Of a DNA stretch of 32,112 nt, positions 1 through 6,307 are shown piece after piece. Positions within the stretch are counted from its first letter, which is position 1, and every line of letters starts with the position of its first letter. The notes under the pieces are model-generated. The model saw nothing but the letters and a program-made list of their open reading frames with translations, made no database searches and was not told where the DNA came from. The stretch spans positions 1 through 32,112 of the forward strand of contig QMOK01000007.1 of assembly GCA_003648195.1 (NCBI GenBank), written 5' to 3'. The position numbers were made by a program, and so were the translations under genes. The stretch is from Chloroflexota bacterium. GTDB taxonomy: Bacteria > Chloroflexota > Anaerolineae > Anaerolineales > UBA11858.

Positions 1-1451
1 AAGACGAATTGTCCTAGCTCTTCATCGTAATAAGTATACCCTTCGTAATGCTGCGTTCCGGCTAAATCGGCTTCAATATCCATCCCCAAATTGGCTACAC
101 CATTCATGTCTGCGTATACAGCGTCAACGGCGTTCACGCGTCCCATTCCTTGCTGCCACATGCTATAAAGGGCTTCTTCTGTTTCTATATCCACCCAGAG
201 GAGTGATGTGCCCATGAGACGGAATTTTATTTCATCAGGCGTCAGGGCCGGGTTTTGATCTAAGGCTAGAGCAGCTATCCCAGAAACGACCGCGGTTGCT
301 TGAGAAGTTCCGGCGATAGAGTAGTAATCTTGTCCAACTTTAGAATCTTTATAAAGATGAGCAAGATAGCTGTTTTTCGGCATCGGTGAAAGCATGTGAG
401 CGCCCGGTGCGACAACATCTGGTTTGACAAAGCCATCCAAAGTAGGTCCGGCTGCTGAGAATGGGGCTATGTAATCATCGCTCCAATCGTTGGGGGTGTA
501 ATTGTCAGTGAACGCTCCAACTGTAATGACGTAAGGGTTGTTGCCGGGAACACCTATAGTCATGGGATCAGGCCCTCCGTTCCCAGCCGCAACTACTACG
601 GTGATACCTTCTGCCCAAGCGCGGGTGACAGCTTGATTTAATGGGTCAGCCCAATAAGGTGACTGCACGGGGGAAACCAAAGACAAGTTCATGATCTTGA
701 TGCCATATTCGTCTTTGTGTTCAACAACCCATTGTATGCCTTGAATAACTTGTTCATAGGTTCCAAAACCTTCTTTGTTAAGAACCCGTACAGATACTAT
801 ATTTGCCTGAGGGGCAATGCCGTTCCATTCACCATCTTCACCAATTTGGGGGTTGGCAATGATACCCGCTATGTGAGTGCCGTGTCCATTAGGATCGTGT
901 GGTTTCTTCTTATTCTCTACAAAGTCAACCCAACCAATAAGGCGTTCGGCGGCTTTTTTGTTTTTCGCGAATAATGTTTTAGTGTCTATGCCTGTATCAA
1001 TAACGGCAATGGCAACTTCAGCGCCAGTTGCGCCACATTCCCAAGCAATATCGGCTCCGGTCACGTCTGGATAATTGGTTGCTGGAATGTTTTTGTTGTT
1101 CTTGTTAGTATCTTTATTTTTGCTATGGTCGTCACGATTATCTCCATCGGCGAGATTAACTGCCGCATCAGGCGTGATAGAAGAAATCATCGGTTCAGCC
1201 AAAAGTTGAGCTATCATTCTTTCGGGTATGATAGCGCCAACACCATCAATTATCTCAAGATAGGATGTCACCTCACCTCCGTAATTTTCCACCACCTGGG
1301 CAACTTCGTTCGAGTTATTTCCTTGAACAATAACGCCCACAGTGTAAGAGGAAGACGACATAAAATTAGGAGCGATCAAAGCAAAAACAGTTACAAAAGT
1401 GATTGCCAAAATTAATATTTTCTTTTTACATTTCATACGATTGATATTCAT
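1..1451 (-). CDS. S8 subtilisin-like secreted serine protease, partial (C-terminus beyond window start)
   Basis: Minus-strand translation from ATG at 1451 (MNINRMKCKKKILILAITFVTVFALIAPNF, signal-peptide-like) stays open to position 1. Catalytic motifs are in order: AVIDTGID (Asp), HGTHIAG (His), AAGNGGPD (oxyanion Asn), GTSQATAVVSG (Ser). SD aaggag upstream. Confidence 0.95.
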   Translation of the reverse strand, partial: MNINRMKCKKKILILAITFVTVFALIAPNFMSSSSYTVGVIVQGNNSNEVAQVVENYGGEVTSYLEIIDGVGAIIPERMIAQLLAEPMISSITPDAAVNLADGDNRDDHSKNKDTNKNNKNIPATNYPDVTGADIAWECGATGAEVAIAVIDTGIDTKTLFAKNKKAAERLIGWVDFVENKKKPHDPNGHGTHIAGIIANPQIGEDGEWNGIAPQANIVSVRVLNKEGFGTYEQVIQGIQWVVEHKDEYGIKIMNLSLVSPVQSPYWADPLNQAVTRAWAEGITVVVAAGNGGPDPMTIGVPGNNPYVITVGAFTDNYTPNDWSDDYIAPFSAAGPTLDGFVKPDVVAPGAHMLSPMPKNSYLAHLYKDSKVGQDYYSIAGTSQATAVVSGIAALALDQNPALTPDEIKFRLMGTSLLWVDIETEEALYSMWQQGMGRVNAVDAVYADMNGVANLGMDIEADLAGTQHYEGYTYYDEELGQFV

Positions 1452-1463
1452 GATAATCTCCTT

Positions 1464-1517
1464 TCAGTCTTGTGGCTTTCTAAATACAAGAGTTCCAATA
1501 TTTATCCGTTTGCCCAT
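1464..1517 (-). CDS. possible leader peptide/uORF MGKRINIGTLVFRKPQD
   Basis: 17 codons with GGAGG-type SD (ttggaggcagctATG), ending 12 nt upstream of the protease ATG. Confidence 0.3.
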   Translation of the reverse strand: MGKRINIGTLVFRKPQD

Positions 1518-1555
1518 AGCTGCCTCCAAATAGTAATAAATACTGCACTAGAATC

Positions 1556-1633
1556 AAAAACACACAGCAAGATGACAGTAATCCTTTGCCGATTCAAGAA
1601 GGGGTTAGCTTCTCTGTCACGTTCTGTGTGTGG
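1556..1633 (-). terminator. long intrinsic-terminator-like hairpin in the protease leader
   Basis: On the minus strand: CACACACAG..GTGACAG ... CTGTCAT..CTGTGTG followed by TTTTTG. Two nested complementary segments, then a U-run. Confidence 0.55.
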
Positions 1634-1647
1634 CGTTTAAAAACACA

Positions 1648-1757
1648 AATTCGTTGTTCTTCGGCAACTTGGCGATCTTAGGTATTTCTCAATACCCTTA
1701 GCCCCAAGCTTTGTGCACCTAACTTTCACTAGGATTACCTTTTCGGATTTCGAATTC
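1648..1757 (-). promoter_or_regulatory. GEMM/c-di-GMP-I-like riboswitch aptamer upstream of the protease
   Basis: Minus strand: CGAAAAGGTAATCCTAGTGAAAGTTAGGTGCACAAAGCTTGGGGCTAAGGGTATTGAGAAATACCTAAGATCGCCAAGTTGCCGAAG. It has a GAAA-tetraloop P2 (CCTAGT-GAAA-GTTAGG), a CAAAGC joining segment, a P3 with GGGGCTAAGG and CCTAAG receptor-like strands, a GCCAAGTTGCCGA 3' strand, and a closing AATTCG/CGAATT helix. Resembles the GEMM-I consensus, with deviations. Confidence 0.65.
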
Positions 1758-3436: not shown

Positions 3437-6307
3437 ATGTCCCTAGCCGCACCGACACCTAGTCCCAAGTTCAACGGCAAACTTTCCCGCACCATGTTAT
3501 TCCTTATCATCCCTATTGTCTTGGTGCCAATCATAATCGTGGGAAGTATCGCCTATATTGAAGCCAAAGACCTGCTCGAAAAGCAAAACTACGCTCAACT
3601 TTCTACAATAGAACAAAACGCTAAAAGCCAAATTAACTCTTGGATAGCAGAAAAACACATCATTCTCTATAAAGTAGTTAGAACCGAACAATTCTCAAGC
3701 TCTATCCAAAAGCTATTTTCACTAGATACGCAAAGTGCCGAATACAATGCCGCAGAGGAAAAAATAACCACAGAGCTTGTGGAGACGGGCCTTAGCCATT
3801 TTGTGATTGTAAACCAAACGGGGGAAATTCTCACCGCATCAACTTCTAATTGGGTAGGCGAAACAATTAACGACGAGCAATTTTTTTCCAGCCTAGACAC
3901 AGAAGCAATCCGCTCAAAAATTGTCTATCGACTTGACCCCTTCGCAGCTAGCGATGTTGTCATTCTCACAGCCGCGCCCATATTTTCTGAAGACGCCTCC
4001 TACCTTGGAGCCGTCATCGCCATCACACATGGAGATGAACTCAGACCATTCCTACAAACAGCCCAAATATATCCATCCAGCCAGGCTTACTTCATAAACG
4101 CCGATAAAACCTACCTAGTGGTAACAAAACTCCTCCAAACCATAGCCCGCCTAGACCCATCAGAAAGTCAAAAGCAAATAATAGGAACTGGCCTCACAGA
4201 ATGTTTAAAAGAAGGTGAATATTCACTAGAAACAAAGTATAGATCTTTCGACTCTGAACCTGTTCTCGGAACATTCCTCTGCATCCCGGAAATCAGTAGT
4301 GGTCTAATAATAGAAATACCAACGGTCGCAGTATATGCACGCTTGAATGATTTAATCCCTTTAACACTAGGCTTGTTAGCAATACTTACCGTAATAATGG
4401 TATTACTAATTCGGTTCGGAGCGAGTCGGATTGTAGGCCCAATCGTTCAAATAGCAAATACGGCTAACAACATAGCCCAAGGAGATTGGCGAACAAGAGT
4501 GCCCATAACACGCCATGATGAAATTGGCCTCCTCGCTTACTCTTTCAATGAAATGGCAGACCAATTATCAGAATTTTACAGATCCCTAGAAACCCAAGTG
4601 CAAGAACGAACCAATCAAATCTACGCCATTTCAAAAATTGAACACAAAATGAGTTCAGCATCCACTGTAAGCGAACTCTTCAACACCATAACCCAAACCA
4701 TAAAACAGAGTTTTGATTTTTATCATGTTTCCCTATATGAACTAAACTCCTCCCAACAATATGCCATACTCCGCAGCATCGCAGGGGAACAATCTCCCCA
4801 AATGCTCATAGACCACTACACGTTAAATGTGCGAGCACATGCCCTCATTCACGCAGCTATCACCACCACCAAGCCCAGCATTACTTCCAGCAAAGACACA
4901 AACCCTCATTTTGAACACGACCGTCTTCCACATACCCAATCAGCAGCCATTATCCCCCTCCTCTCCCAAGGAGAAGTTTTCGGCATACTCAACCTACAAA
5001 GCAAAAGTCCTCCAGCATTCAGTCAAAGTACACTCGCAGCCCTGCAAATTATTGCAGAGCAATTCACAATTTCTCTACAAAGCATTCACCTTTTAGAAAG
5101 CGCTGAAGGTGACCTGGCAGAAATATCTCGTCTTTACCAATCCAGCCATAAGATAGCGCAAACAAACAACTGGGATGAAGTCGTAGGTATCATCAGCAAT
5201 ACACTAGCAAAGACATCACTTATATCGGGAGTTTTCATCGCCGAAGATGAGAGACTCCAAGTGAACTCCATCGTGGATCCACAAAACAAACGTCTTGCCC
5301 CTCCCCAAGAATGGTTGCCAATCACCAGACAAGCGATCGAAGAATTTCTCCCGCACGCCAAGCCATTCCTCATTCTCAAAGACTTGGAACACCCAACAAA
5401 AATACCAGCCCCAATGCTAACTATCTCCCAAGAACTTGGCTGTCAAGAACTGGCATTTTTGCCTATTTGGGAAAAAGACCATTTATCGACCCTGATTTTG
5501 CTGGGTTCCCAAGATAAAAACACCCTTACCTCAACCTCAATTCAACCTTATATAAATTTAATCGAAATGGCAAACACAACTCTGGAAAACATGATTGCCT
5601 CACACACAATCAACCAACAACTCACAAAATTACAAACCATCCAGAGAATCAATCAAACAGTTTCGCAAGAAACAACCCTTGATAAACTCTTCCAAGTATT
5701 TCACGAAGAAATAAAACGAACACTGGGAGATGTAGGCTTCCTTATTTCCATCTACGACCAAGAAACAAAACTAATTCGAGTACCATACATGTACTCAAAA
5801 AAGACTGGCTTATCTACCATTCCTCCATTCCCATTAGGAGAAGGGCTAACCTCTATCATCATCAGAACAAAAAGCCCCTTGATGCTTGTAGAAAACACAC
5901 GTGAAAGAGCAAGCTCACTAGGAGCCAAGACAATAGGAGAACCCGCCCGCTCCTGGCTAGGCGTCCCACTGCTAACACACGATGAACCAATCGGCACAAT
6001 TGTAGTGCAAGACCTAGAGCATGAAAACGCATTCACTCAAGAAGACCTGGAATTTTTATCTACGCTAGCCGCACAAGTCAGTATCGCTATTCGCAATACT
6101 CTAACCTTAGAAACAATACACTATCGCTCTCAACGTCAAAATCAACTGCTCGCAGCCACGGGCAAAATACGAAGTTCCACGGATATGCAAACCATTCTGG
6201 CCACAACAGCACAAGAAATCAGCAATATTCTAAATGCCAAAAGCGCCAGAATAGAAATCGCTCCCCTTCAAGAAACAAAATCCGAGCAGGTGGAGATAAG
6301 CGCATGA
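3437..6307 (+). CDS. TM-dCache-like-TM-HAMP receptor with three GAF domains and a truncated GAF-like tail, no kinase domain
   Basis: N-terminal TM, long extracellular region, second TM, HAMP (IVGPIVQIANTANNIAQGDW...DEIGLLAYSFNEMADQL), GAF repeats, tail KIRSSTDMQTILATTAQEISNIL. SD aaggag. Confidence 0.88.
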   Translation: MSLAAPTPSPKFNGKLSRTMLFLIIPIVLVPIIIVGSIAYIEAKDLLEKQNYAQLSTIEQNAKSQINSWIAEKHIILYKVVRTEQFSSSIQKLFSLDTQSAEYNAAEEKITTELVETGLSHFVIVNQTGEILTASTSNWVGETINDEQFFSSLDTEAIRSKIVYRLDPFAASDVVILTAAPIFSEDASYLGAVIAITHGDELRPFLQTAQIYPSSQAYFINADKTYLVVTKLLQTIARLDPSESQKQIIGTGLTECLKEGEYSLETKYRSFDSEPVLGTFLCIPEISSGLIIEIPTVAVYARLNDLIPLTLGLLAILTVIMVLLIRFGASRIVGPIVQIANTANNIAQGDWRTRVPITRHDEIGLLAYSFNEMADQLSEFYRSLETQVQERTNQIYAISKIEHKMSSASTVSELFNTITQTIKQSFDFYHVSLYELNSSQQYAILRSIAGEQSPQMLIDHYTLNVRAHALIHAAITTTKPSITSSKDTNPHFEHDRLPHTQSAAIIPLLSQGEVFGILNLQSKSPPAFSQSTLAALQIIAEQFTISLQSIHLLESAEGDLAEISRLYQSSHKIAQTNNWDEVVGIISNTLAKTSLISGVFIAEDERLQVNSIVDPQNKRLAPPQEWLPITRQAIEEFLPHAKPFLILKDLEHPTKIPAPMLTISQELGCQELAFLPIWEKDHLSTLILLGSQDKNTLTSTSIQPYINLIEMANTTLENMIASHTINQQLTKLQTIQRINQTVSQETTLDKLFQVFHEEIKRTLGDVGFLISIYDQETKLIRVPYMYSKKTGLSTIPPFPLGEGLTSIIIRTKSPLMLVENTRERASSLGAKTIGEPARSWLGVPLLTHDEPIGTIVVQDLEHENAFTQEDLEFLSTLAAQVSIAIRNTLTLETIHYRSQRQNQLLAATGKIRSSTDMQTILATTAQEISNILNAKSARIEIAPLQETKSEQVEISA

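Follow-up and report, generated by a model that had tools for sequence, protein, structure and literature searches.

In C. difficile, class I c-di-GMP riboswitches are mostly OFF switches, and one of them, Cdi-1-12, controls the secreted protease gene zmpI (PMC6200980). The ligand-contacting residues G20, A47 and C92 of the Vc2 aptamer correspond to G11, A38 and C81 of Bc1 (PMC11218506, with equivalences also drawn from PMC4744006), and the natural GEMM-I variants that carry an A at position 20 are the cGAMP-selective GEMM-Ib riboswitches, described in Geobacter (PMC6456294). A limited search of the open-access literature for c-di-GMP riboswitches associated with subtilisins, or present in Chloroflexota, returned nothing directly on point.

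The window analysed here is a whole contig (C7) of 32,112 nucleotides from a 2.98-Mb, 327-contig assembly of a Chloroflexota bacterium. A cmscan search of the whole window against all Rfam families places a c-di-GMP-I aptamer at 1749-1660 on the minus strand, which matches RF01051 over its full length (model positions 1-87 of 87) with an E-value of 3.5e-9 and a score of 58.6 bits, well above the curated gathering score of 35 bits. The leader element is thus almost certainly a c-di-GMP-I riboswitch, i.e., a new member of an already known class, for which the mechanism described below is what we infer. The features of the locus are as follows.

1660-1749, minus strand: c-di-GMP-I (GEMM-I) aptamer (cmscan, RF01051)
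1718-1733, minus strand: P2 hairpin CCUAGU-GAAA-GUUAGG with a GAAA tetraloop (cmscan alignment)
1714-1737, minus strand: two co-changed core pairs, U1737-A1714 and U1734·U1717 (alignment of 31 aptamers)
1731-1738, minus strand: 5' target strand of the anti-aptamer within the aptamer, GUAAUCCU (complementarity)
1661-1667, minus strand: 3' target strand of the anti-aptamer within the aptamer, UUGCCGA, including the C92 equivalent (complementarity)
1578-1592, minus strand: bipartite anti-aptamer (antiterminator) strand, UCGGCAA plus AGGAUUAC, between the terminator arms (complementarity; folding of growing transcripts)
1556-1632, minus strand: intrinsic-terminator-like hairpin (fold; position in agreement with the terminators of related leaders)
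1458-1461, minus strand: Shine-Dalgarno sequence GGAG, with a 6-nt spacer to the ATG at 1451 (sequence)
3-1451, minus strand: S8 (subtilisin) protease, predicted to be secreted and truncated at the contig end after 483 aa (PF00082, E 1.2e-52; translation)

The preliminary description, made from the letters alone, had recognized GEMM-I-like elements on the minus strand, and the motifs that it quoted are all present, including the GAAA-capped P2 at 1733-1718 and TTGCCGA at 1667-1661; the comparison with the Rfam GEMM models that it proposed gave the RF01051 match above. Its assignment of a secreted subtilisin as the controlled gene is likewise borne out. The reading frame, starting with the ATG at 1451, is open up to the contig end, and the encoded protein contains a PF00082 (Peptidase S8) domain with the catalytic Asp, His and Ser motifs DTG, GHGTH and GTSQA. 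Its N-terminus is signal-peptide-like, suggesting that the protease is secreted. The named relatives of the protease are from Chloroflexota and Anaerolineales MAGs. A 17-codon ORF, MGKRINIGTLVFRKPQD, is found at 1464-1517 on the same strand; its ribosome-binding site (GGAGG) is strong, it extends to the Shine-Dalgarno sequence of the protease and it is not obvious in related leaders. A leader peptide or translational coupling are possible roles for this ORF. The upstream intergenic region gave only sub-threshold matches in a search for further structured RNAs in Rfam, and a plasmid search with the leader as query gave no match.

The aptamer shares with the Vc2 type the full 87-position match, the GAAA-capped P2, the P3 helix, the residues at the three ligand contacts and a terminator downstream. 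The P3 strand of the tetraloop receptor, CUAAG, is present, while its partner UAUG is UAAG in the window. G20 and A47 are retained as G1739 and A1712, and C92 is retained at a position which is probably C1664 (or C1663). RF01051 is the best match of the window aptamer, in contrast to seven related leaders which by E-value match best to c-di-GMP-I-GGC (RF03167), a sister family of the same clan. With 58.6 bits, the window aptamer is the lowest-scoring of the protease-family aptamers (about 64-86 bits for the others). In an alignment of 31 aptamers four of its core positions differ from bases that are invariant in the 30 relatives, and a fifth difference is a one-base gap within P3 (alignment column 44). 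The four changed positions form two facing pairs beside P2: U1737-A1714 replaces a C-G pair (30/30 relatives) and U1734·U1717 replaces an A·G pair (30/30). In terms of model positions, GGTAATCC and GGTGCACAAAGC thus represent a paired change, C13-G36 to U-A and A16·G33 to U·U, of which the former is a compensatory Watson-Crick change. The altered pairs adjoin the ligand-contacting residues, which are themselves unchanged.

On account of these core deviations the preliminary description had questioned the identity of the ligand, a doubt that does not hold in view of the unchanged contacts and the recurrence of the U-A pair in five other c-di-GMP-I aptamers. A pattern search in 399 genomes of the order gave seven matches to the U-A version of the core, i.e., the window, five matches within RF01051-scoring aptamers and locus L079, which has no aptamer match; the consensus version was matched in 141 genomes. 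Because the G20, A47 and C92 contacts are unchanged and position 20 is a G, c-di-GMP is the predicted ligand. The genome encodes nine GGDEF matches, which makes c-di-GMP plausible as a ligand. That the core changes have shifted the preference to another dinucleotide, e.g. 3',3'-cGAMP, is very improbable. Four core positions do differ from those of 30 relatives, and GEMM-I variants of altered specificity occur in nature, but these are marked by an A at position 20 (PMC6456294), whereas the window, with the same architecture, has G1739. The remaining contacts are kept as well, and the changed pairs are second-shell, one of them recurring in ordinary c-di-GMP-I aptamers. As the main reading, an altered ligand was rejected on the basis of the unchanged contact residues and the recurring U-A pair. 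Elsewhere in the order, an A at the Vc2 G20 equivalent, the signature of cGAMP-binding GEMM-Ib riboswitches, is present in the protease-leader aptamers of L053 (G141) and L061 (G386) and in the first aptamer of L081; judged from this residue, the protease relative in the L053 and L061 genomes may be under the control of cGAMP instead of c-di-GMP. In addition, L077, L078, L080 and L081 contain tandem c-di-GMP-I aptamers of which one copy has the U-A core; the second copy is C-G in the three loci with an alignment of it (L077, L078 and L081).

Downstream of the aptamer, the arms CACACACAG (1632-1624) and CTGTGTGT (1567-1560) form a terminator-like hairpin followed by U5 (1560-1556), as proposed earlier. 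Its lower stem is CACACACAG/CUGUGUGU and its upper stem GUGACAG/CUGUCAU, with a predicted folding energy of -23.3 kcal/mol and a modest z-score of -1.8 (9 of 200 shuffles fold equally well). A simple terminator scan did not list the 1632-1560 hairpin, because its loop is large. Between the two arms lies a 15-nt strand, UCGGCAAAGGAUUAC (1592-1578), which is fully complementary to two strands of the aptamer, UCGGCAA (1592-1586) pairing with UUGCCGA (1667-1661) over 7 bp and AGGAUUAC (1585-1578) with GUAAUCCU (1738-1731) over 8 bp. Each of the target strands forms one side of the ligand pocket. The competing strand had been noted before, and its match is slightly better than was then claimed: the two segments abut without a gap and are nested, such that all 8+7 bp can form together. 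Among 2000 dinucleotide-shuffled sequences, a nested match of at least 15 nt occurs in 0.55% of cases when the platform is shuffled and in 0.05% when the aptamer is shuffled, as determined after the pattern had been noticed. A single complementarity of 7-8 nt was discarded as evidence, being found in 12-13% of shuffles and rare only as an abutting bipartite match; the stability of the global leader fold was discarded as well, since it is not unusual (z -1.07).

In equilibrium folding of growing transcripts, the helix with the 3' strand of the aptamer has a probability of 0.93-0.99 as long as the transcript ends between 1585 and 1564, and from 1575 to 1564 the two anti-aptamer helices are both predicted at 0.95-0.99; the terminator displaces the anti-aptamer only once the transcript end passes 1562. 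The predicted energies of the two states are nearly equal (-44.2 and -49.1 kcal/mol, from models of the minimum-free-energy type that leave out tertiary contacts and the ligand). Even without ligand the terminator is favoured by about 5 kcal/mol, such that the switch would depend on kinetics. With the 3' arm of the terminator the anti-aptamer shares only about two bases (C1578 and U1577), so that exclusion would be mainly topological and kinetic, the 5' arm being enclosed in the loop of the anti-aptamer. A pseudoknotted co-structure may hold both. The designation as a 'textbook' switch is too strong: the textbook layout, in which the antiterminator overlaps the 5' arm of the terminator, is that of the related leaders, and the window contains a rearranged version of it.

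These related leaders were identified among 399 genomes of the order, 37 of which encode a close relative of the protease (match E ≤ 1e-80). Directly upstream of the protease gene, 31 of the 37 carry an aptamer of the c-di-GMP-I type, matching RF01051 or the sister family RF03167, and these genomes represent seven families; in one subset of the scanned loci the aptamer is upstream in 26 of 26. An upstream aptamer was not found in the six other protease-bearing genomes (G004, G022, G028, G053, G065 and G317). In a protein tree that left out G053, G065 and G317, and in which the inner branches of the riboswitch-bearing group are poorly resolved, the riboswitch-free relatives are mostly positioned outside this group or at its edge. 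G004 is the sister and nearest relative of the window protease (76% identity), and the absence of its riboswitch is likely a loss. Comparison of the G004 and window leaders revealed neither an aptamer nor leader similarity in G004, with the coding region alone aligning. As a consequence, the window platform has no close relative for covariation analysis. In the G004 locus (L033, G004:C99; about 1140-1480) the reading frame shifts between the N-terminal and catalytic parts near an Asp-rich stretch, which may reflect decay or an assembly error. In L071 and L072, from two genomes, the riboswitch-controlled protease gene is followed by a cobalamin riboswitch (about 3530-3716, plus strand). The order-wide association of riboswitch and protease was not found in the open-access literature covered by our limited search.

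The related leaders (L034, L035, L037, L049-L074) share with the window the protease family, the aptamer and a terminator ~28 nt past the aptamer. A downstream complement of at least 6 nt to the aptamer 3' strand (last 22 nt) is present in 26 of the 31 leaders, compared with 5.1 expected from shuffles (made, like those above, after the pattern had been noticed), the leaders being non-independent samples of which 30 are distinct (one contig has two locus ids, L043 and L065). This complement mostly belongs to the 5' arm of a terminator, which begins about 22-40 nt past the aptamer, e.g. GCCTGGC opposite GCCAGGC of the aptamer. From this classic antiterminator layout, in which ligand binding would free the terminator, the related leaders are predicted to be c-di-GMP OFF switches. 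The window has lost that arm. It keeps the aptamer, the terminator position and the antiterminator principle, but differs from the Vc2 type in that its antiterminator now occupies the terminator loop and has the 5' pocket strand as a target in addition to the 3' strand.

Taken with the folding models, this arrangement makes a c-di-GMP OFF switch the probable mechanism of the window: with c-di-GMP present the terminator would form and the protease would be OFF, and with c-di-GMP absent the anti-aptamer would form and the protease would be ON. At low c-di-GMP concentrations the strand 1592-1578 would, upon leaving the polymerase, pair at once with the empty pocket strands GUAAUCCU and UUGCCGA. 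The resulting 15-bp anti-aptamer would enclose the 5' arm of the terminator and extend into the beginning of its 3' arm (C1578 and U1577), the terminator would form too late and protease would be made. At high concentrations the ligand would hold both target strands in the aptamer and block the anti-aptamer, allowing the 1632-1560 hairpin to form and the polymerase to halt at U1560-1556. Ligand binding, the OFF polarity and kinetic control are here what we infer.

An unlikely, though not negligible, alternative is that the element is a decaying relic, in which the aptamer binds poorly and the hairpin is a constitutive attenuator of the protease. Such a relic would account for the aptamer score, which is the lowest of the set, for the changes at four positions that are invariant in the relatives, for the terminator as thermodynamic winner without ligand, and for a sister gene in G004 that lacks the aptamer and is frame-shifted between its N-terminal part and protease domain; a c-di-GMP riboswitch that is unresponsive in vivo also has a precedent in Bc1 (PMC11218506). 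The core changes, however, affect both sides of each pair and leave the helices intact, good aptamers elsewhere also have the U-A pair, and the ligand contacts are kept, while a bipartite anti-aptamer is an unlikely by-product of decay and the protease frame is open in the window genome. Distinctly improbable is translational control, in which GGUAAUCCU, the 5' strand of the aptamer, would once freed bind the ribosome-binding region AGGAGAUUAUC (about 1462-1452), and the ligand, by retaining this strand, would expose that region (ON). The pairing, between 1731-1739 and 1452-1462 on the minus strand, is part of the minimum-energy fold of the full leader, with a predicted probability of 0.43, but it appears in the terminated-state ensemble only, the closer and longer anti-aptamer captures the same strand first, and the related leaders have a termination layout. 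Beyond the OFF switch favoured here, it is conceivable, albeit doubtful, that the core pairs and the bipartite anti-aptamer have co-evolved, yielding a re-tuned pocket (in affinity or ligand) and a single strand in the terminator loop that captures both pocket halves, a design that none of the 31 other protease leaders analysed here shows.

The genome contains a second c-di-GMP-I riboswitch (L001, G000:C18; 63.3 bits), which has no terminator and is separated by just ~40 nt from the start codon of a gene for a predicted secreted protein, pointing to probable translational control. Lacking a terminator and having a different target, it was rejected as an explanation of the window platform. Divergent from the riboswitch leader is a tRNA gene at 2181-2252 on the plus strand (RF00005, 66 bits), which, with CCC as the anticodon, apparently encodes tRNA-Gly. 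From 3437 to 31906 the plus strand encodes an extended series of sensor-like proteins with HAMP, dCache, MASE11 and GAF domains, without a Pfam kinase match at the cut-off used and with interspersed genes for solute-binding proteins; two receiver-only response regulators precede this series.

The closest functional parallel is Cdi-1-12/zmpI of C. difficile, in which a class I c-di-GMP riboswitch likewise represses a secreted protease gene (PMC6200980). ZmpI is a zinc metalloprotease from another phylum for which the effect has been measured, whereas the window encodes a subtilisin and the effect is predicted. In seven families of an Anaerolineales-like order a c-di-GMP riboswitch is tied to a single family of predicted secreted proteases, with one likely loss, and the window is a case in which the expression platform has been rewired with its logic kept. 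If the OFF polarity is true, protease production would cease in cells with high c-di-GMP, which are typically sessile, in the same way as that of ZmpI in C. difficile. Extracellular proteolysis would then be connected to c-di-GMP, in a manner open to direct testing, in bacteria of which the signalling is little known.
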